Notes: generated by a model from the letters alone, not told the origin. DNA of 64,000 nt from Actinomycetota bacterium (GCA_030841035.1 JAVEDI010000063.1:1-64000); one strand, 5' to 3'; positions 54,128 to 64,000 are shown, counted from the stretch's first letter. Numbers and translations: made by a program.

Positions 54128-55237
54128 CTACAACCAGGGGTCGACGCTCACGTGCAAGGTCTCAGCGTCGACGGTGCCAGCGACAGCATCAAGGGCGTCC
54201 GCCATCCTGTCGAGACTCAATGGCGCGCCTGCGAGAAGCCCGAGCCTTGTCCCGCCCCTGCCGATCACCTGGAGTGCGCGTTCGACGGCCGCGAAGCTGT
54301 GACCACGGACACCACGAAGGGTCACTCGCTTCTTGCGGATCAGAGCCAGGTCGAGTTCGTCCCATCCCGGCCCACACTTGGGCCCACCCGAGGCGATCAC
54401 AATGGTGCCACCCGTGCGGACGGCTCTCAGCGCCGTCATCAAGGTCACGGCGCCGCCGCCGCTGACATCGATCACTACGTCGGCCATCTCTCCTGCCGTC
54501 AGATCCCGGATGACCTCGACCGGGTCGCGCTCCTGCGAGACGACCGTGTCGGTCGCACCGACCTGCCGCGCGATGTCGAGCCGTCGAGCGTCCCGAGCAA
54601 GCCCCGCGACCACCACGAGGGCGGCGCCAGCCTCCTCACAGGCAATGGTGCACGCCGCGCCCTGCTGTCCGGGGCCGATGATGAGCACCGCGTCTCCGGG
54701 GCGGACACCACCGTCGAGCTGCGCCCACTGGATGCCGTTGCTCAGGGGGATCCCGAAGGTCGCATGGCTGGCCGGGACGTCGTCCGGAACGACGTGCAGG
54801 ACAGAGTTCGGGTGCAAGTACTGATGCCTGCTGTAACCGCCCCACAAGGAAGGAGGGACGTCCAACGGCGTCGACCCGTACCTCAGTGCCCCCGCGCGGG
54901 TGTTGTCCGTGGTGCGACACGATCGGAACTCGCCCCCGCGGCAGTACCTGCAGTGTCCGCAGGGCAGGTACTCCTCCAAGAGCACGCGAGTCCCCTCGAC
55001 AACTCCCCATCGTTGCTGCGCGCTACTGCCGACCCGCGTCACTACCCCGACAGTCTCATGCCCAAGGATCGTCGGCGGCATGGAGGCGGGAGCATACTTC
55101 TTGACGTCACTGCCGCACACTCCGCAAGCCTCCACCTGCAGGAGTCCGTCTTCGCGACCGGTGGCCGGGATGTCGAGGTCCCGCACGACGAAGCGCTTGC
55201 CGCCTACGGCAACTGCCGACCGTGTCTTGTGGCTCAT
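54128..55237 (-). CDS. Zinc-dependent alcohol dehydrogenase (MDR family)
   Basis: 369-residue medium-chain dehydrogenase. Catalytic zinc residues: C41, H60, E61 (CGVCGSD, GHE). Structural zinc cysteines: C93, C96, C99, C107 (CGHCRYC). The NAD-binding VLIIGPGQQGAACTIACEEAG is near residue 180. Substrate unknown; formaldehyde or aryl alcohol oxidation after a Rieske oxygenase would make sense. It lies 43 bp behind the Rieske gene on the same strand. Confidence 0.93.
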   Translation of the reverse strand: MSHKTRSAVAVGGKRFVVRDLDIPATGREDGLLQVEACGVCGSDVKKYAPASMPPTILGHETVGVVTRVGSSAQQRWGVVEGTRVLLEEYLPCGHCRYCRGGEFRSCRTTDNTRAGALRYGSTPLDVPPSLWGGYSRHQYLHPNSVLHVVPDDVPASHATFGIPLSNGIQWAQLDGGVRPGDAVLIIGPGQQGAACTIACEEAGAALVVVAGLARDARRLDIARQVGATDTVVSQERDPVEVIRDLTAGEMADVVIDVSGGGAVTLMTALRAVRTGGTIVIASGGPKCGPGWDELDLALIRKKRVTLRGVRGHSFAAVERALQVIGRGGTRLGLLAGAPLSLDRMADALDAVAGTVDAETLHVSVDPWL

Positions 55238-55280: not shown

Positions 55281-56552
55281 TCACCATTGCGCCATCAAGA
55301 GGTCCTTCATCGCTTCCTGCCAAGGGAGCGAGCCTTCCAGGATCGCCTCGGCTGGCCTGACCAACCGGAGCTCCTCGGTGTCCGTTCCCAACGGTCGACG
55401 CCCATCGGCTACATCGTCCAACGCCTCACGGAGCATTCTCCTCGCGGCGATGATCGCCTTGTCCGAGGTGCCGAGATGCTCCTGGGACCGATCGCAGACC
55501 GGGCCCATTCCTTCCTGCACCGCGAAGTCCTGGGTGTTGAGGCCGACAATGCCCGTGTACGTACGCGCGCGCTGCATCTCGCGATCGATGAGGAAGTCGT
55601 TCGAGAGGTTGCGCTTGAGGCGATAGGTGCCAGGGATGAAGTCGTCCTCTCCCCTACCGGCCGCCTTTTCGTGGCGTTCCCACATCTTGTCGGAGATGGG
55701 CGTGTCGGCCGTGGCGGAGCACACCCAGTTGTAGACCATCGTCCATTGATCGTCGATGGGAACCCAGATATGGCCACGCAGCGTCGGTGTTTCGCGCGGC
55801 TCCCCCGAGCCGTCGAGGAAGGCCGCTCGCATCTGCATGGCCGGCATGAAGAACTGGTACGCACGAACGTAGGTTCGGTCCTGCCCCAGTGACCGGATGC
55901 CGGCATATCGGAAGCCGTATCGAGTCGGCTCGACATCGAGTCGGGGGTGGGTGTTGCGGCTTTTCAATCTGCCGCTGTCACCGAGATCGTTGTTGTGTAC
56001 GAACGAGGAGTGGGTGGTGTCGATGCCGCCCTCGAGGGCTTGGAGGTAGTTGGCATTCTCGAGAGTCTTGGATACTCGACGATGGCTGTCCGGCGCTCGC
56101 AGCCACTCGTAGGCAGGCAACGGTGGGAGCTCCGCACGGGGCCCGAGGAACGCCCAGACAACGCCACCGCCCTCCCACGTCGGGTACGCCGCGATGTTGA
56201 CCTTTGCGCGAAAGACACTGTCCGGTGGTTCCGACGGCAGGTCGACGCAGTTGCCGCCCACGTCGAACTTCCAGCCGTGATAGACGCACCGCAGACCGCA
56301 CTCCTCGTTCCTCGCGAAGAACATCGGTGCGCGGCGATGGGGGCAGTGGGCATCTAGCAGTCCAACCTGGCCGGCGCTGTCGCGGAAGGCGACCAGGTCC
56401 TCGCCGAGCAGCCGCACCCGCACGGGGGGTCCATCTGGCTCGCTGATCTCCTCGCTCAAGACCGCCGGCAGCCAGTAGCGACGGAACAGATCGCCCATCC
56501 TTGTACCCGGGCCGACCCGGGTCAGGAGTTCGTTCATCTCGCGCGAGAGCAT
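55281..56552 (-). CDS. Rieske [2Fe-2S] aromatic-ring oxygenase (phthalate 4,5-dioxygenase-like)
   Basis: 423-residue alpha-type terminal oxygenase. The Rieske centre is C70-P-H72 and C89-V-Y-H92 (YHGW). The mononuclear iron ligands lie in EGGIDTTHSSFVH: D178, H181 and H186. The fold resembles phthalate 4,5-dioxygenase and related mono- or demethylating oxygenases. No ferredoxin reductase gene is in the window, so electrons must come from a reductase elsewhere. ATG at 56552 is preceded by GGAGTAG. It follows a RraA-family gene by 59 bp and leads into the dehydrogenase gene. Confidence 0.94.
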   Translation of the reverse strand: MLSREMNELLTRVGPGTRMGDLFRRYWLPAVLSEEISEPDGPPVRVRLLGEDLVAFRDSAGQVGLLDAHCPHRRAPMFFARNEECGLRCVYHGWKFDVGGNCVDLPSEPPDSVFRAKVNIAAYPTWEGGGVVWAFLGPRAELPPLPAYEWLRAPDSHRRVSKTLENANYLQALEGGIDTTHSSFVHNNDLGDSGRLKSRNTHPRLDVEPTRYGFRYAGIRSLGQDRTYVRAYQFFMPAMQMRAAFLDGSGEPRETPTLRGHIWVPIDDQWTMVYNWVCSATADTPISDKMWERHEKAAGRGEDDFIPGTYRLKRNLSNDFLIDREMQRARTYTGIVGLNTQDFAVQEGMGPVCDRSQEHLGTSDKAIIAARRMLREALDDVADGRRPLGTDTEELRLVRPAEAILEGSLPWQEAMKDLLMAQW

Positions 56553-56611: not shown

Positions 56612-57406
56612 TCACGTCTTCCTGACCGCGCGCGCCGCTTGGCGGGACTGGGAAGCCGTGGTCATCGACTCGTAACGGCTGTCCATCACTCGCGAGACCG
56701 GGTCGCCAGCCAGGATCGAGTTGCGCATGTGCCGTTCGCTGGCGGACATCTCCTCCGCACGGGCAATCACGCGCTCCACCTCCGCCGCAGCAATCATGAC
56801 CACACCGCTGCGGTCGGCGACGATGAAGTCCCCAGGGTTGATGGTGCGCCCGCTCAGCACGATCGGCTCCTCGACCGCGTCCTCCACGGTGCGACCTCGC
56901 GCACTGACGGGTGTCACGGAACGCGCGAAGACCGGCAAGCCGAGTTCCTCGGCCTCCTCGACGTCACGACAGGCGCCGTCGACGATGACCGCGCGGACCC
57001 CTCGCACCGAAGCAGCCGCGCTGAGCAGCCCACCCCAGCCGGCCGAGTCACAGCGTCCCTGGTGCGCGACGGCGATGATGTCGCCTGGCGCGCTGCGCTC
57101 GATAGCACGGCATCCCAAGTGCACCTTCGACGCCGGCGCAGGCTCGTCGAAGTTGAGGCGCCGCAACTGCATCGTGCGGACGCGGCCGGCGACCCGGCCG
57201 CAGGCCCATAGCGGGGCGATACCGGGCAAGGCTCCGAACAGGCCCAGTTGGTCGACGGCATCCGAGACGACACAGGTGTCCAAGGCCTCCAGGCGGGACG
57301 CCACCGACCGTTTCAGCACGTCGTCGACCCTTCCTTCGCGCGGGGTGTACCACAGGTCTCGCGCCACCGGATCGCTACGAGGTCCACCGGCCGAACGCCA
57401 TTCCAC
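56612..57406 (-). CDS. RraA-family protein (aldolase-like), third copy
   Basis: 264-residue protein of the RraA/4-carboxy-4-hydroxy-2-oxoadipate aldolase family. The family active-site pattern is present as VIVDGACRDVEE (Arg and metal-binding Asp), but the usual Trp-Gly-Glu/Asp before it reads WGGLL here, a change that may alter catalysis. The N terminus is extended by about 40 residues. GTG at 57406 follows AGGAGG; the open frame reaches 57442. It overlaps the 3' end of the dioxygenase gene by 32 bp, so it is coupled to it. The LigK/GalC-type aldolase splits the hydrated ring-fission product. Confidence 0.85.
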   Translation of the reverse strand: MEWRSAGGPRSDPVARDLWYTPREGRVDDVLKRSVASRLEALDTCVVSDAVDQLGLFGALPGIAPLWACGRVAGRVRTMQLRRLNFDEPAPASKVHLGCRAIERSAPGDIIAVAHQGRCDSAGWGGLLSAAASVRGVRAVIVDGACRDVEEAEELGLPVFARSVTPVSARGRTVEDAVEEPIVLSGRTINPGDFIVADRSGVVMIAAAEVERVIARAEEMSASERHMRNSILAGDPVSRVMDSRYESMTTASQSRQAARAVRKT

Positions 57407-58331
57407 ATCCAGTGCCTCCTGCCGACCGGTAGCCCGGGACATAGTCGACCAACTCGAAGCTGAGATCGGTCAGCGCGCCCGCCGCAACGAGCCAGTTCTT
57501 GATCTCGGACGATCCCGACTGGAGCCTGGCCTCGGGAATGGCGCCGAGACTGTCGGCATCCCTCGCCTCGATGGCCTTGATCACGGACCTGTCCAGCTCC
57601 TCGTCCACGACGAAGTGACTGAGACCGCCCGATGCGATCACTCCGACCCGCATGTCCGCCGGCCACGAGGCCACCGCATCGCGTACCGCCTGACCTAGGG
57701 CATAGCAGCGGGCGGCGGTCGGCTGATTGGGCGGGAAGTAGGTGTTCAGCATGATCGGCACGACGGGGATGATGCGGTCGCCCATGAGCCTGAGCCGGAC
57801 AAACGTGAACGCATGACCGAGCGAGCGAGCTTCGGGCTGCTTGTTCATCTGGGCGACGTCGAAGTCACTGGCAACCAACTGCTCGATGAGGTGCTTGGCG
57901 AGGGGCGCTGCGACGGGATAGTCCTCGCGTTGCGCTGCGTGCTTGGCCCACATCGCCGCCGCCCGTGACTCCGGGACATCGGTCATGTCTCGGGGAATGT
58001 CCGTGATCTTGTCGCCCCAGTAGATCGCGACCGCAGGCATGCTTTCCTCGCTGAAGAGCTCCGCCTGGTCGTCGCCCACCACGATCACAGCATCCAGGTT
58101 GGCGGCCTGAAGCTCCAGACCGACAACCCGAACCGCTTCCTGGACAGCGTCATACTTCCGTTGCCAGACATCCGGTGTCAGCTCATGGGCGAGCCCGTCG
58201 CCGACCTCCTTGACCAGCTCCTCGTACCTTGTTCGCTTGCGGTCGAGCTCGCCGTGCTTTCCCCACCACTGCGGCGTCAGGCTCACTTGTGAGCCATGCG
58301 AGGTACCCAGCCCTAGAACGATGGTCGCCAT
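57375..58331 (-). CDS. LigB-type extradiol aromatic-ring dioxygenase
   Basis: 318-residue class III (LigB superfamily) extradiol dioxygenase, which opens catechol-type rings next to the hydroxyls using Fe(II). The N-terminal iron-site LGLGTSHG has H12, and SGGLSHFVVDEELD with a second catalytic His is near residue 245. PVVPIMLNTYFPPNQP is also typical. No LigA alpha subunit was found nearby, and the usual LigA part is absent. ATG at 58331 follows AGGGAGACAG. It comes 82 bp after a LigJ-like gene and overlaps the RraA gene. Confidence 0.88.
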   Translation of the reverse strand: MATIVLGLGTSHGSQVSLTPQWWGKHGELDRKRTRYEELVKEVGDGLAHELTPDVWQRKYDAVQEAVRVVGLELQAANLDAVIVVGDDQAELFSEESMPAVAIYWGDKITDIPRDMTDVPESRAAAMWAKHAAQREDYPVAAPLAKHLIEQLVASDFDVAQMNKQPEARSLGHAFTFVRLRLMGDRIIPVVPIMLNTYFPPNQPTAARCYALGQAVRDAVASWPADMRVGVIASGGLSHFVVDEELDRSVIKAIEARDADSLGAIPEARLQSGSSEIKNWLVAAGALTDLSFELVDYVPGYRSAGGTGCGMAFGRWTS

Positions 58332-58413
58332 CGCTGTCTCCCTGCAGTCGTAACCGTCCTGCTGCGCGCAGCGTCTCGGTGGTGCCGTCGGCGCCGCCCA
58401 TCGGACATCGGTC

Positions 58414-59394
58414 TCATGCGAATGCTCGTCGGTAAAGGCGCTTGGCGTTCGTCTCGTACACCTGACGGCGGTCCTCGTCGGTGAGGATGTCGAGCGCGTC
58501 GATGACCGGCTTGAGATCGTCCAGTGACTGACCGGTCCGCGGGTCGACGACCGCACCGGTCCCCGGTCTCTCCGTGCCGAACAGGCAGTTGCCAGGTCCG
58601 ACCACCCTGAACAACAACTCGAGCGCCTCGGAGGAGTAGAGAACTGTGTCGAAGTGGAGCTTGCGTAGCCGATCGGTGAAGTCCTCGCCGCCCGTCTTGA
58701 GGTTCCTCGCGCGGAACCGGCCCAGCTGGTAGGGGATCGCTCCGCCGCCGTGCGCCACGACGATCTTCAGTTCGGGAAAGTCCTCGAAGACCCGCGACTG
58801 GAGGAGGCCGATGACCGCGATGCTCTCCTCGTTGATGAAGTGCAACGAGTACGACTCGCGTGGGGAGCTGCAGCTCGCGGAATGGATCATTGCTGGGACG
58901 TCCAGCTCACAGAGCTTCTCGTACAGCGGATACCAGTACCCATCCCCCAGACCAGGCTGAGGCGTACCATCCGCCTCGCAGGGATCCGGGTTGAGCAGGC
59001 ATCCCACGAAACCCAACTCAAGGACACACCGCTCGAGCTCCGCCACGACCGGCGCCAGATCCGTAACACGGAACTGGGGAAGACCGGCGACACCACGGAA
59101 GTGTTCGGGGAACAAGCCACATTGCCGCTGGATGATGTCGTTGACGTACCTCGTCCAGACGTTCACCACGCCCGTGCCGAAGAGGGAGTGCATCATCGTG
59201 TAGGGACGAGGCGAGATGAACTGGACATCGATCCCCCCCGACGTCAAGACGTTGAGATGGTCAGCGAGCTTGGATCGCAGCAGATCGTCGGACAGTGAGG
59301 GGCCCTTGAAGGGTGATCTCCGGGCGAAGAGCTTGGCTTGGTACTCGTACATCTGTGGCGGCGCCACCAGGTGTCCGTGGATATCGATGATCAA
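58414..59394 (-). CDS. LigJ-like amidohydrolase (4-oxalomesaconate hydratase type)
   Basis: 326-residue metal-dependent amidohydrolase of the ACMSD superfamily. The N-terminal IDIHGH gives H6 and H8. PAMIHSAS and IVVAHGGGAIPY hold later metal histidines, and NCLFGTERPG is near the end. LigJ in protocatechuate and gallate 4,5-cleavage has the same layout, including FVGCLLNPDPCE. It probably hydrates 4-oxalomesaconate. ACMSD-type decarboxylation is the main alternative. ATG overlaps the RidA stop by 4 bp. Confidence 0.87.
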   Translation of the reverse strand: MIIDIHGHLVAPPQMYEYQAKLFARRSPFKGPSLSDDLLRSKLADHLNVLTSGGIDVQFISPRPYTMMHSLFGTGVVNVWTRYVNDIIQRQCGLFPEHFRGVAGLPQFRVTDLAPVVAELERCVLELGFVGCLLNPDPCEADGTPQPGLGDGYWYPLYEKLCELDVPAMIHSASCSSPRESYSLHFINEESIAVIGLLQSRVFEDFPELKIVVAHGGGAIPYQLGRFRARNLKTGGEDFTDRLRKLHFDTVLYSSEALELLFRVVGPGNCLFGTERPGTGAVVDPRTGQSLDDLKPVIDALDILTDEDRRQVYETNAKRLYRRAFA

Positions 59395-59789
59395 TTCAGG
59401 TCACCGCCTCCGAGCACGGCGATGACCTGCAGCTGCACGCGCATCGGGCCGTCGGCCCGCGCGTCCATTGCGTGCCGCGCTGGCCGGTCGTCGGGGTCCG
59501 GATACATGGCCAGCCAGCAGTCGTCGACCAACTGTCGGTCCCGACGGTCCCGGAGGAAGACCGTCACCAGGCCGATGCCCGAGAGGTCACCCCCCGCGTG
59601 GCGAACCAGCGCTGCCATGTTCTCGAAGGCCACCCGAATCTCATCCTTGGCGTCCTGCGGATAAGACCCGGTCTCGGGATCCTTTCCGTTGATGGCCGAG
59701 GAGAAGAACAAGTCCCCGATCCTGGCACCGTTGGGAATTGGTGCCTTGTGTCCCACACCTGGCAGATGAATCGCCTTCCGCTTGCTCAC
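59391..59789 (-). CDS. RidA/YjgF family protein
   Basis: 132-residue protein of the RidA family, trimers that hydrolyse enamines/imines or, in relatives such as 2-aminomuconate deaminase, deaminate ring-opening products. GDLFFSSAINGKDPETGSYP and FENMAALVRHAGGDLSGI are typical, and the C-terminal RVQLQVIAVLG strand lies near the site of the usual ligand arginine. Its start and stop overlap neighbours by 4 bp. A deaminase role would fit if the substrate has ring nitrogen. Confidence 0.88.
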   Translation of the reverse strand: MSKRKAIHLPGVGHKAPIPNGARIGDLFFSSAINGKDPETGSYPQDAKDEIRVAFENMAALVRHAGGDLSGIGLVTVFLRDRRDRQLVDDCWLAMYPDPDDRPARHAMDARADGPMRVQLQVIAVLGGGDLN

Positions 59790-60460
59790 GGGGCTCCCTG
59801 GTCGCTCGTCTCGCCTGAGACGAGGTCGGTGGACTCTTGTTCTGTCTCGGTGAGAAGTTGCCGCCAGCCGTAGAGATCCAGGGTGTGAGCGCCGGCGCGG
59901 ATCGCTTCGATCATGGCGGCCTCCTTGACCTGCCGGGCTTTGGCCTCAACAAGCACGCGCCCGACATCTGCCCTCGGGAGGCAGATGACGCCGTCTCGGT
60001 CCGCGACCACGAGGTCGCCTGCCGCGACGACCACGCCACCCACATCGGTCGGCCCGCCGAGGGTGCCCACACCCGCCTTGTAGGTGCCCAACATTGATAC
60101 GCCCCGGGCAAAGACCGGGAACCCCAGCATCTCCAGCGAGTCGATGTCGCGGACACCCCCGTCGATCACGAGCCCGGCGATTCCCTGGCGCTGTGCAGCG
60201 CGGGTGAGAACTTCACCCCAGTAGCCGACGAGCAGGCCTCCGCCGTCAACCACGAGGATCGAACCAGCCGGCGCGAGCTCGACCGCTGTGTGCAGGGCCA
60301 GGTTGTCGCCGGGCAGGCAGCCGACGGGGTACGCCGGCGCGCAAGCCTCCGCGCCGGACCACGCCGGGCGCAGCCGCGGATCGAGTGCGCACGGCAACTT
60401 CGATGCCTCGTAGATCGTCGAAGTGCCCAGCGCCAGCCAGACCTCGGCAGCGACGTTCAA
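59786..60460 (-). CDS. RraA-family protein (aldolase-like), second copy
   Basis: 224-residue RraA-family protein. ILVVDGGGLLVGYWGEVLTRAA and LVIDGGVRDIDSLEMLGFPVF carry the WGE and Arg-Asp active-site residues expected for 4-hydroxy-4-methyl-2-oxoglutarate/4-carboxy-4-hydroxy-2-oxoadipate aldolases. The start codon is TTG at 60460, overlapping the previous stop (TTGA) with GAAGGAG upstream, so translation is coupled. A non-aldolase role cannot be excluded, since some RraA proteins only bind RNase E. Confidence 0.88.
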   Translation of the reverse strand: MNVAAEVWLALGTSTIYEASKLPCALDPRLRPAWSGAEACAPAYPVGCLPGDNLALHTAVELAPAGSILVVDGGGLLVGYWGEVLTRAAQRQGIAGLVIDGGVRDIDSLEMLGFPVFARGVSMLGTYKAGVGTLGGPTDVGGVVVAAGDLVVADRDGVICLPRADVGRVLVEAKARQVKEAAMIEAIRAGAHTLDLYGWRQLLTETEQESTDLVSGETSDQGAP

Positions 60461-61149
60461 CGGGCTCCTTCACTGTCCGCGCGCCGCTGAAGCTCGTGGT
60501 ATCCGGTGAGTCCCCGAGCTACGGCAAGGGTCACGCCATTGCGCACCGACTGCACGACGCGAGTCTCGGCCGCAACGATCTCCTTGGCGACCGCGGCCAC
60601 CTCCTCCGCCTTGTCCCAGGCGACAACAACCACACCATCGTCGTCACCGATGACCAGGTCTCCGGGCCTGACCTGCACGTCCCCGAGAGTGACGACCGCC
60701 CCTACGTCTGCGACCTCCACGCGATCCTTGCCCGTCCGCATGAACCGTCCAAGGCTGTACACGGGATAACCGAGCTCCGCGGGACGGTGCACGTCTCGGC
60801 AGACCCCGTTGATCACGGTGCCGGCGATGCCGCGACCGTGGGCCACGGTCGTGAGGATGTCTCCCCAGACGGTGCAGTCCATCCGCCCGCCGTTGTCGAG
60901 GACCACCACCTGGCCAGAGAGACAGTCATCCAGATAGTCCCCGACGGTTCCTTTGGCCGCGCCCACCGGGACATAACGGACTGTGAAGGCGGGTCCAGCC
61001 ATCCGCTGGCCGGTGAACAGAGGCGCGATCCCGAGCGCACTGCCGGGGATGCCGAGCCGGTCGAGGGCGTCCGAGACAGCGGCGGCACCTGCCGCAAGCA
61101 GCAGCTCGCACACGGTGCGCTGGGATGTCTGTCGCAATGTGTCGGTCAC
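60457..61149 (-). CDS. RraA-family protein (aldolase-like), first copy
   Basis: 230-residue RraA-family protein. VVVLDNGGRMDCTVWGDIL and TVINGVCRDVHRPAELGYPV contain the WGD and Arg-Asp active-site patterns. GTG at 61149 is chosen because GGAGG lies 7 bp upstream; the open frame runs to 61176. It follows the ABC ATPase gene and heads four genes joined by 4-bp overlaps (two RraA proteins, RidA, LigJ-like hydratase). It may make, together with the second copy, a hetero-oligomer or act on a second aldol product. Confidence 0.87.
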   Translation of the reverse strand: MTDTLRQTSQRTVCELLLAAGAAAVSDALDRLGIPGSALGIAPLFTGQRMAGPAFTVRYVPVGAAKGTVGDYLDDCLSGQVVVLDNGGRMDCTVWGDILTTVAHGRGIAGTVINGVCRDVHRPAELGYPVYSLGRFMRTGKDRVEVADVGAVVTLGDVQVRPGDLVIGDDDGVVVVAWDKAEEVAAVAKEIVAAETRVVQSVRNGVTLAVARGLTGYHELQRRADSEGAR

Positions 61150-61219
61150 CACAGGACCTCCACGTCTGTACTCCACACTCCGACCAGGTGATGTGTCACG
61201 TCGGTGACCCTCTCGAAGC

Positions 61220-62437
61220 TCATGCGGACCCCAGAGCGCTCAACGGCGAGTCGTCCATGCGAGCCTCACTCTCATCATCGGGTTCATGCTGGGTCTCGGG
61301 GGTCGTGCCGTGTTCGTCGGAGACGACGATGCAGTGCTCAGTCGGAAACTCGACGAAGATCTCCTGCCGGCGCCGAAGCTCGACGTCTGGATGCTGGCGG
61401 CTGATCAACAGCTGCTTTCCCACTGAGACGTGGTACTCGGCGCTCTCGCCCAAGAACAGGACGTAGTCGATCGTGCCGGGCAGGACGTTGGCCGTGCCGC
61501 TCGACGGCTCCTGAGCATGGAGCCGGAGGTTCTCCGGCCTGATGGAAAGGGAAGCCTGGTCGTGCTCACGGATCGCCGTAGGGCAGATGGCCTCGAGCAC
61601 CCCTGCCGGGGTGTCCAGTCTGAGGGTCTCGCCACGACCCTTGCCGAGAATGGTTGCGTCGAGCAGATTGGTTCGGCCGACGAACGTAGCGACGAAGCGG
61701 GTAGCGGGTCGCCGGTACAGCTGACGGGGCGTGGCCTCCTGCACGATCTTCCCGTTTTCCATGACCGCCACCCGGTTCGACATGCTCAGTGCTTCTGACT
61801 GATCGTGGGTGACGTAGAGCGTGGTGACCCCGACCTGCCGTTGCAGCCGTCGCAACTCGGTTCGCATGAGCTCGCGAAGACTCGCGTCGAGGTTGGACAG
61901 CGGCTCGTCAAGCAGCAGAAGCTTCGGCTGCCGCACCAGGGCTCGCGCGAGCGCCAGACGCTGCTGCTGCCCCCCGGAGAGCTTGGTGGCGGGACGATCG
62001 GCGAAGGCCGCAAGCTGCACGGTTTCCAGCGCTTGCATCACGTGTGCTGGTATCTCGTTGCGACGCATCTTTCGCTTGCTCCGGCTCACTCCGCGCAACG
62101 GGAAAGCTACGTTGTCGAAGACGGTCATGTGTGGCCAGATCGCATAGCTCTGGAACACCATGCCGATGTCGCGCTCGTCCGGGCGAATGAAGGTGTTCGG
62201 CTGATGGCTGGAGACCACCGTGCCACCCAGGTAGATCGTGCCTGAGTCGGTACGCTCGAGCCCGGCCACGCAGCGCAGAGTGGTCGTCTTCCCGCAGCCC
62301 GACGGCCCGAGCAGGGTGTAGAACTTGCCCTCCTCGACCTCGAAGGACACTCCGTTCACGGCCCGGGCGCCGTCCTCGGCGCCCGGATAGCGCTTGCCGA
62401 GGCCTTCCACACCGAGGCTCACTTCGATGGCGCTCAC
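61220..62437 (-). CDS. ABC transporter ATP-binding protein (PotA/FbpC type)
   Basis: 405-residue ATPase. Walker A GPSGCGKT is near residue 43, the Q-loop is MVFQSYAIWPHMTV, the signature is LSGGQQQR and Walker B is LLLLDEPLSNLDA. A C-terminal TOBE-like domain follows, as in polyamine, ferric iron and sulfate importers. GTG at 62437 shares one base with the upstream cupin stop (TAGTG). No permease or binding-protein gene for this class is in the window; they may lie beyond the right edge. Its cargo could be an aromatic acid or another organic anion. Confidence 0.93.
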   Translation of the reverse strand: MSAIEVSLGVEGLGKRYPGAEDGARAVNGVSFEVEEGKFYTLLGPSGCGKTTTLRCVAGLERTDSGTIYLGGTVVSSHQPNTFIRPDERDIGMVFQSYAIWPHMTVFDNVAFPLRGVSRSKRKMRRNEIPAHVMQALETVQLAAFADRPATKLSGGQQQRLALARALVRQPKLLLLDEPLSNLDASLRELMRTELRRLQRQVGVTTLYVTHDQSEALSMSNRVAVMENGKIVQEATPRQLYRRPATRFVATFVGRTNLLDATILGKGRGETLRLDTPAGVLEAICPTAIREHDQASLSIRPENLRLHAQEPSSGTANVLPGTIDYVLFLGESAEYHVSVGKQLLISRQHPDVELRRRQEIFVEFPTEHCIVVSDEHGTTPETQHEPDDESEARMDDSPLSALGSA

Positions 62438-63021
62438 TACTGCTGACCTTCCCACTCTGCTGGGTGAAAGTTCTCCCAACCGGCAAGCGCCGAGTCCGGC
62501 GCCAGCTCGACGAACTCCTGGAAGTTCAAGCCGGCGAAGTTGTACAGAGGCTTGGACTTGATCACCAGCATTCGGGCAGGGTGCTCATCGCTGGCGTTGA
62601 AGTGCTGATGGACGACGCCGGGGGGCACGATGAGGCAGTCCCCTGCCTTCCAGTCGGTCCGCTCACCGTCGTGGACGTCGTATCCGACCCCGTTGAGCAC
62701 GTACATGAGCGCGCTGTTCTGGTGACCGTGCTTCTGGGACCTGCCACCGGGGGCAAGCTCTTCAAACGCGGCTTGGATCGTCTGCATGAGACCCATGCCG
62801 GGGTTGAGCAGGGTCTTGTTCCACTTCACGGGCCCGTTCTTCCACGGCTTCTCCGACGTCTTGTAGATGCGGGGTGCCTCTCGCTGCCGGCGCCGCTCCT
62901 CCAGGAGGCTGTACTTGCCGCTGCGGATGGCGCGGACAAATACTCGGCCACCTTCGTAGTGTCGTTCCACCTTGGCCGTCAGCTCTGCCTCGGTGGTGCG
63001 AGCCTGCTCGCTCTCAAGCAT
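62437..63021 (-). CDS. Cupin-domain protein (second)
   Basis: 194-residue single-cupin protein. The metal motif 1 is H-G-H (GGRSQKHGHQNSALMYVLNG) with the usual trailing glutamate replaced by Ser-Ala-Leu, and motif 2 is GVVHQHFNA. The N-terminal 60 residues are basic and helical. ATG at 63021 is used because no earlier start codon fits; the ribosome site GAAGGG is distant. It is preceded by another cupin gene (53 bp gap). Possible roles include a dioxygenase or isomerase; resemblance to gentisate-type bicupins is only structural. Confidence 0.8.
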   Translation of the reverse strand: MLESEQARTTEAELTAKVERHYEGGRVFVRAIRSGKYSLLEERRRQREAPRIYKTSEKPWKNGPVKWNKTLLNPGMGLMQTIQAAFEELAPGGRSQKHGHQNSALMYVLNGVGYDVHDGERTDWKAGDCLIVPPGVVHQHFNASDEHPARMLVIKSKPLYNFAGLNFQEFVELAPDSALAGWENFHPAEWEGQQ

Positions 63022-63073
63022 TTCTTGGTGCGCCCTTCGGTCGATGAACAGGGGACGTGGACGTCGGGTCCGC

Positions 63074-63631
63074 TCAGTAGCCGCGGTAGGTCGGTGCGGC
63101 TTCCAGCTGCTCGAGGTCATGACAGCCGAGCCACTTGAAGACGCGGGAGGTCGCGCTGAGCAACCGGACAGGTGCGTCGCCGTCAAGGTTGAAGTGCTGA
63201 TGGACGGTGTTTACGGGGATGAACATCCAGTCCGTTGCCTCCCAGTCGTACCGGGTGGGCGCGTCGGCTACCCGCCAGTTGAACGTTTCGCCCATCTCGG
63301 CCAGGTCCACGTCCCAGTGCAACGAGTAGCCACGACCTTCGAGGATGAAGACGAACTCCTCAGCCATGTGCCGATGCCTGCCCGACCGTCCGTCGGGAGG
63401 TAGCTCTTGCACGTACGCGTCGATGTCGAAGACGTGCGGGTTCAGGTCTGGGTGGGCGATGTGAGTCAAGAGTCCCTGAGCACAGTCCTCCGTGACCTGA
63501 TCCTCTGCTCGGATGATGTGCGGGGCGGACCGCAGACGCCGTTGTTCGCGGGCGCTGGCCAGGTCCTGCGCATAGAACGCTGCCTCTGCACGCCCGGCAG
63601 GCTGCGTGCGGGACTCGTCGTAGGGTTTCAT
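63074..63631 (-). CDS. Cupin-domain protein (first)
   Basis: 185-residue single-cupin protein. Motif 1 is GRSGRHRHMAEEFVFILEG with two His and a Glu, the classic metal triad, and motif 2 is NTVHQHFNLDG. ATG at 63631 overlaps the AAA+ ATPase stop by 4 bp. The two adjacent cupins share HQHFN but otherwise differ, suggesting two halves of a bicupin enzyme or two related metalloenzymes. Confidence 0.82.
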   Translation of the reverse strand: MKPYDESRTQPAGRAEAAFYAQDLASAREQRRLRSAPHIIRAEDQVTEDCAQGLLTHIAHPDLNPHVFDIDAYVQELPPDGRSGRHRHMAEEFVFILEGRGYSLHWDVDLAEMGETFNWRVADAPTRYDWEATDWMFIPVNTVHQHFNLDGDAPVRLLSATSRVFKWLGCHDLEQLEAAPTYRGY

Positions 63632-64000
63632 CTACCGTCCATTCCGGTGCGCATGTCGGTCAGGTGCTCCGATGTGTTCAACCGCTGACCCAGGTGCCGG
63701 GCCGCAGCTTGATCGAGATGGTTCGCCCGGACGCGGGCATGACGGGCGAAGTTGGCCTCGCGCAGAGCGGTCATCCGGGCTACGTCGCAGATGGCCGTGA
63801 GGTCAGCGCCCGTCATTCCTTCAGTACGTACCGCGACAGAGGCGACGCTGCCTTCGAGGGCCTCGCTGTCCGACCCTGAAAGGAACTGTCGGAGCTTGAC
63901 TCTCAGGATCGCGTCGCGAGCGCGGACATCCGGCAAGGGGACATGGATCTTGGTCCCGAGACGTCCGGGCCGTAGCAAGGCGGGATCGACCAGGTCGGGG
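63628..64000 (-). CDS. AAA+ ATPase, C-terminal part (5' end outside window)
   Basis: 124 codons are present. DPALLRPGRLGTKIHVPLPD is the second-region homology segment of Cdc48/FtsH-type AAA ATPases with the arginine-finger region, and EGMTGADLTAICDVARMTALRE is the sensor-2/lid helix. The Walker motifs lie beyond the right edge. It overlaps the cupin start, so it belongs to the catabolic operon. Such an ATPase could activate or unfold a metalloenzyme; this is inference. Confidence 0.85.
   Translation of the reverse strand, partial: PDLVDPALLRPGRLGTKIHVPLPDVRARDAILRVKLRQFLSGSDSEALEGSVASVAVRTEGMTGADLTAICDVARMTALREANFARHARVRANHLDQAAARHLGQRLNTSEHLTDMRTGMDGR

Follow-up and report, generated by a model that had tools for sequence, protein, structure and literature searches.

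Which ring-fission pathway is encoded where an extradiol dioxygenase, an amidohydrolase, three RraA proteins and a RidA-family protein lie together? This question is raised by positions 56,612 to 61,149 of a 64,000-nucleotide stretch of DNA from an Actinomycetota bacterium (GCA_030841035.1, JAVEDI010000063.1:1-64000), which is referred to as the window hereafter. A first-pass annotation had described a gallate-type cleavage module with a LigB-type dioxygenase, a LigJ-like amidohydrolase and an RraA-type aldolase, lacking LigA, LigC and LigI. Our analysis confirmed this observation of a module, did not support the gallate reading, and revealed that the operon belongs to the LigZ-LigY kind, known from the catabolism of 5,5′-dehydrodivanillate (DDVA) in Sphingobium lignivorans SYK-6.

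The amidohydrolase and dioxygenase group with LigY and LigZ

The best solved relatives of the window amidohydrolase were LigY (333 bits) and then LigJ (242 bits), and its identity was 49.4% to LigY versus 39.8% to the LigJ of SYK-6. In a maximum-likelihood tree, a branch with 100/100 support parted LigJ, represented by SYK-6 LigJ and Arthrobacter PcmC, from a clade holding LigY and the window protein. All seven clade-discriminating positions showed the LigY state and none the LigJ state (0/7), and the metal ligands were retained. The label LigJ-like is thus correct at the superfamily level and gives way below it to the LigY clade. LigY proper sits in a different lineage of that clade, and the relation, as judged from the tree, is one of family rather than one-to-one orthology. 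The amidohydrolase is probably a C-C hydrolase of a meta-cleavage product, and a LigJ-type hydratase was not found in the operon. The genome's own true LigJ and LigK are encoded at contig C44 42000-60000 (L158), together with a zinc alcohol dehydrogenase and another Rieske protein, with no LigAB adjoining. For comparison, the LigY sequence of the PDB alignment had a 100% match in one genome (G205), which we infer from this match to be Sphingobium SYK-6 and call the SYK-6-type genome.

The window dioxygenase consists of 318 amino acids with a LigB domain only, and lacks a LigA-like domain such as that of DesB (418 amino acids) and GalA. Its AlphaFold model was confident (predicted local distance difference test score 95.4), and the top structural matches were LigAB (Foldseek E 9.6e-18) and DesB, indicating a class III LigB fold. 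In a rapidly built tree, in which some branches were long, it joined the LigZ family, distant from LigB and PcmA. The LigB motif NDH is replaced by GDDQ, so that the second histidine of the two-histidine-one-carboxylate iron site is a glutamine, the same as in LigZ; the numbering of the LigB iron ligands follows its known structure. Among the 98 family rows with the motif, glutamine occupied this position in 91 and histidine in seven, the latter falling in two distinct parts of the tree. The LigZ of SYK-6, which also has the glutamine, has been reported to be active as a dioxygenase. Elsewhere in the genome (contig C26, L007:6915-8054), the gene for another distant LigB-family member, one with a DDQ motif, adjoins those for a LigXa_C-like Rieske protein and a probable alpha/beta hydrolase.

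A profile search of the whole genome for the LigA family (PF07746) gave no match. As the initial control genomes were also without a match, the search was repeated on the SYK-6-type genome as a positive control, where it returned four. The description of a ring-fission module without LigA, LigC and LigI was borne out. Of the two outcomes that the first-pass annotation had named as speaking against it, a LigA gene elsewhere did not turn up, and a divergent phylogeny came about in part: the proteins fall with LigZ and LigY instead of LigB and LigJ, although LigZ and LigY, too, are enzymes of aromatic ring fission. The protocatechuate 4,5-cleavage pathway, with its LigA subunit, is rejected on the phylogeny, the residues and the LigA search.

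A pair of RraA paralogues accompanies LigY-type enzymes

The three RraA paralogues of the operon belong to three different subfamilies, which a tree of 92 RraA proteins resolved as RraA1 and RraA3 (Shimodaira-Hasegawa approximate likelihood ratio test (SH-aLRT) support 99 and 98, respectively) and a group containing LigK. The ligZ locus of the SYK-6-type genome has the order dioxygenase, RraA3, RraA1, LigY, followed some 3 kb further on by a LigXa-type Rieske gene, in agreement with the published tags SLG_07720 (ligZ), SLG_07750 (ligY) and SLG_07770 (ligXa) (PMC12997858). The window RraA1 formed a clade with the second RraA protein of this locus (SH-aLRT 99) and the window RraA3 with the first (SH-aLRT 98).

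Residue numbers were transferred by motif position from the characterised 4-hydroxy-4-methyl-2-oxoglutarate/4-carboxy-4-hydroxy-2-oxoadipate (HMG/CHA) aldolase. The third paralogue grouped with LigK and retains Asn71, His75, Arg123, Asp124, Lys147 and Arg195; Asn71, His75, Lys147 and Arg195 are kept in nearly all members of its group. RraA1 retains Asp102, Arg123 and Asp124 and is without Asn71, His75 and Arg195, while RraA3 retains Arg123 and Asp124, is without the same three residues, and has Asp102 replaced by glycine and Lys147 by arginine. In the Pseudomonas aldolase, the substitutions N71A and K147A each cut kcat more than 1000-fold (PMC5065237). The absence of such residues makes an aldolase reaction of the same kind unlikely, and the pair probably does not perform it in that way.

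Analysis of genes with at least 8 kb of context across phyla showed both RraA1 and RraA3 near 28/28 LigY-clade genes versus 0/7 LigJ-clade genes, counts that are not independent because the loci were partly selected through the dioxygenase and are mutually related. In a second sample, 395 genomes of the class with the amidohydrolase (LigY) as bait, the pair was found at all three LigY-type genes with enough context versus none of five LigJ-type genes. Moreover, one or both RraA genes lay within 1.5 kb at twelve sphingomonad LigY-clade loci. The window operon carries a LigZ-family dioxygenase (by tree and residues), a LigY-clade amidohydrolase and the RraA1/RraA3 pair, a feature of the LigZ-LigY module found here. 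Since the module has a LigK-like aldolase but no ordinary hydratase, the pair is the obvious candidate for a hydratase.

Predicted pathway and alternative explanations

From the observed gene content, phylogeny, residues and conserved neighbourhood, we propose a scheme whose every reaction, substrate and roles for the RraA pair and RidA are predictions. A Rieske oxygenase would convert an aryl- or acyl-substituted aromatic acid to a catechol by hydroxylation or O-demethylation, which keeps the earlier suggestion of this enzyme, encoded in the operon, as the likely first step. The LigZ-type dioxygenase would then open the catechol ring, and the LigY-type amidohydrolase would hydrolyse a C-C bond of the ring-fission product to give a carboxylic acid and a hydroxypentadienoate, which in the known case, that of LigY, is 4-carboxy-2-hydroxypenta-2,4-dienoate (CHPD; PMC6874591). 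The dienoate would be hydrated to 4-hydroxy-4-methyl-2-oxoglutarate, with the RraA1/RraA3 pair as the candidate enzyme, and the LigK-like RraA would split this product into two pyruvates; hydration of CHPD to the same compound followed by aldolase cleavage was also proposed in 2025 (PMC12673573). RidA may act on a reactive intermediate close to ring cleavage or the aldolase step. In relatives from Alicyclobacillus and Paenibacillus, the dioxygenase gene is followed by one for an alpha/beta hydrolase, which is consistent with C-C hydrolysis coming next. Taken as a whole, the scheme of a LigZ-LigY-type module, related in an actinobacterium to the genes for breakdown of a two-ring lignin fragment, appears fairly probable to us.

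Several points weigh against this scheme. The trees place the window proteins next to LigY and LigZ proper rather than inside those lineages, and put the Rieske protein outside the LigXa clade. The SYK-6 route lacks RidA and has no known function for it, and the case for the pair as a hydratase is built on co-occurrence and on the module having no other such enzyme. The 2025 paper lists the enzyme that hydrates the alkene in the SYK-6 route from DDVA as not identified (PMC12673573). By co-occurrence, the pair stands as the leading genomic candidate for dienoate hydration, possibly as a heteromer; that it constitutes a novel type of RraA-fold enzyme, namely an obligate hydratase, perhaps heteromeric, which acts on the LigY-released dienoate and is the one missing in SYK-6, is a tentative proposal. 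A competing explanation takes the two proteins to be aldolase subunits, redundant or heteromeric, and assigns hydration of the dienoate to another enzyme. RraA-fold proteins are class II aldolases, and Arg123 and Asp124 are kept in all members, but the residue losses described above, the cost of the corresponding substitutions in kcat, and the full aldolase usually present in the same module make this rather unlikely.

The remaining alternatives concern the substrate. A gallate-type pathway, in which the dioxygenase would yield oxalomesaconate for a LigJ-like hydratase and an RraA aldolase, shares its superfamilies with the operon; the best PDB sequence matches of the dioxygenase are LigAB and DesB, and the operon encodes a LigK-like aldolase, which alone does not define the pathway. 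The position of the amidohydrolase outside the LigJ clade, the short dioxygenase with its missing iron-ligand histidine, and the separate LigJ-LigK locus in the same genome render it very improbable. Degradation of DDVA itself, exactly as in SYK-6, would be in keeping with the common LigZ, LigY and RraA pair and with the LigXa_C-type Rieske protein. However, the latter fell outside the LigXa clade (support 100) and grouped with LigZ-associated Rieske proteins of Chloroflexota and Acidimicrobiia, its solved relatives being of the phthalate 4,5-dioxygenase type, and the upstream oxygenases differ between modules (P450s, flavin monooxygenases and Rieske proteins). The module probably serves several aryl substrates; that of the window operon is probably not DDVA, and an exact copy of the SYK-6 route is improbable. 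An aromatic or heterocyclic substrate containing nitrogen, whose enamine or imine intermediate RidA would hydrolyse in the manner of 2-aminomuconate-type pathways, would accord with the separate RidA gene in 13 of the 28 modules, its place directly before the dioxygenase gene in Alicyclobacillus and Paenibacillus, the fusion of RidA to the LigK-like aldolase in Nocardioides, and the aligned and conserved active-site arginine. It is nonetheless unlikely, as the Glu120 position of RidA is a glutamine, no other gene of the operon is nitrogen-specific, and many modules, like the SYK-6 ligZ locus, have no RidA. This spread of RidA suggests that a nitrogenous substrate is possible but not required; of the two variants raised in the first-pass annotation, the other, a methoxylated acid, may still be the substrate. 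A literature search joining RraA, amidohydrolase, RidA and ring cleavage gave no match. Flavonoid cleavage of the fde type is unrelated, since an FdeC homologue is a putative glyoxalase (PMC11069340).

Comparison with related loci

Like the window operon, the ligZ-ligY-ligXa locus of SYK-6 clusters a LigZ-type dioxygenase with the glutamine, RraA3, RraA1 and a LigY-type hydrolase. It differs in gene order, in lacking RidA and the LigK-like RraA, in having a LigXa of another Rieske clade, and in outer-membrane transport, where the window operon has an ATP-binding cassette (ABC) system. A second complete module of the SYK-6-type genome (L139, G205:C1:2089000-2108999) comprises LigY, LigZ, RraA3, RraA1, a LigK-like RraA and, as in the window, a Rieske protein outside the LigXa clade; it has no RidA, and its sequences fall in sphingomonad lineages. 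The gallate (DesB/GalA, LigJ, LigK) and protocatechuate 4,5 (LigAB, LigC, LigI, LigJ, LigK) pathways share the LigB fold, the amidohydrolase superfamily and a LigK-like aldolase, but have the LigJ clade, a LigA domain or subunit, and no RraA1/RraA3 pair.

The cluster of Nocardioides agariphilus KCTC 19276 (L040) is syntenic gene for gene, including the cupin, AAA, ABC ATPase, Rieske and alcohol dehydrogenase genes, with identities of 77% for the dioxygenase and 82% for the Rieske protein. It differs in its extra ferredoxins, a second Rieske protein, and the fusion of LigK-like RraA and RidA in a single open frame of 356 amino acids (L040:7908-8975). Plasmid pNL1 of Novosphingobium (L153) shares the LigY-clade hydrolase, RidA, RraA3 and RraA1, but has two-subunit ring-hydroxylating oxygenases in place of an adjoining LigZ-type dioxygenase; one of its RraA genes is annotated as a diguanylate cyclase, evidently wrongly. 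A SAR202 Chloroflexi genome (L062) carries the full module with two adjoining LigZ-type dioxygenases.

Operon organization and genomic context

The gene set from 61176 to 55281 on the minus strand is a real, tight operon (Table 1). The successive genes for RraA1, LigK-like RraA, RidA and the amidohydrolase share 4-base overlaps, which indicate an operon; these overlaps and the conservation across phyla rule out a chance cluster. A GTG at 61149 has a better ribosome-binding site than the 61176 start and is the probable start of RraA1, and the true start of RraA3 probably lies downstream of 57442.

Table 1. Genes of the operon and the adjoining syntenic block in the window.
Feature	Coordinates	Strand	Basis
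Cupin genes and 3′ end of CDC48-like AAA gene, same syntenic block	62437..64000	-	Pfam Cupin_2, AAA
ABC transporter ATPase, PotA/UgpC-like	61220..62479	-	Pfam ABC_tran + TOBE_2; NCBIfam potA-like
RraA1 subfamily protein	60457..61176	-	PF03737
LigK-like RraA, probable HMG/CHA aldolase	59786..60460	-	RraA-like (Pfam); NF006731 aldolase model, 159 bits
RidA-family protein, TdcF-like	59391..59789	-	PF01042
LigY-type amidohydrolase, probable meta-cleavage-product C-C hydrolase	58414..59394	-	Pfam Amidohydro_2
LigZ-type extradiol dioxygenase, ATG at 58331	57375..58331	-	PF02900 (LigB)
RraA3 subfamily protein	56612..57442	-	PF03737
Rieske oxygenase with LigXa_C domain	55281..56552	-	Pfam
Zinc-type alcohol dehydrogenase, final gene of conserved block	54128..55237	-	Pfam ADH_N + ADH_zinc_N; syntenic in Nocardioides

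Upstream of the operon, the genes run on past the window end as far as 71 kb of the contig; they encode the ABC ATPase, a CDC48-like AAA ATPase and four cupins, together with permeases and a solute-binding protein. The cupins showed weak similarity only, to gentisate and 5-aminosalicylate dioxygenases, and gave no clear substrate. The AAA ATPase gene (contig C76 63628-66003, with its 3′ part at window 63628-64000) is flanked by cupin genes that overlap it by 4 and 79 bases, an arrangement also kept in Nocardioides agariphilus. Contig C76 has a G+C content of 0.64-0.68 at about 32-72 kb, lower than at 1-20 kb (0.70-0.72) or 76-80 kb (0.70). A search of one further genome from the same genus gave no close copy of the dioxygenase. 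These two features suggest that the 32-72 kb region is perhaps acquired DNA.

Implications

The LigZ-LigY module has now been seen in Actinomycetota, Bacillota, Chloroflexota (SAR202) and Pseudomonadota, with LigZ-type dioxygenases that lack one iron-binding histidine expected of their class. In SYK-6, the comparison singles out two genes located between ligZ and ligY, a pair that accompanies LigY-type and not LigJ-type enzymes. The RraA pair thereby offers a practical rule to tell C-C hydrolases from oxalomesaconate hydratases, which are merged in generic annotation.

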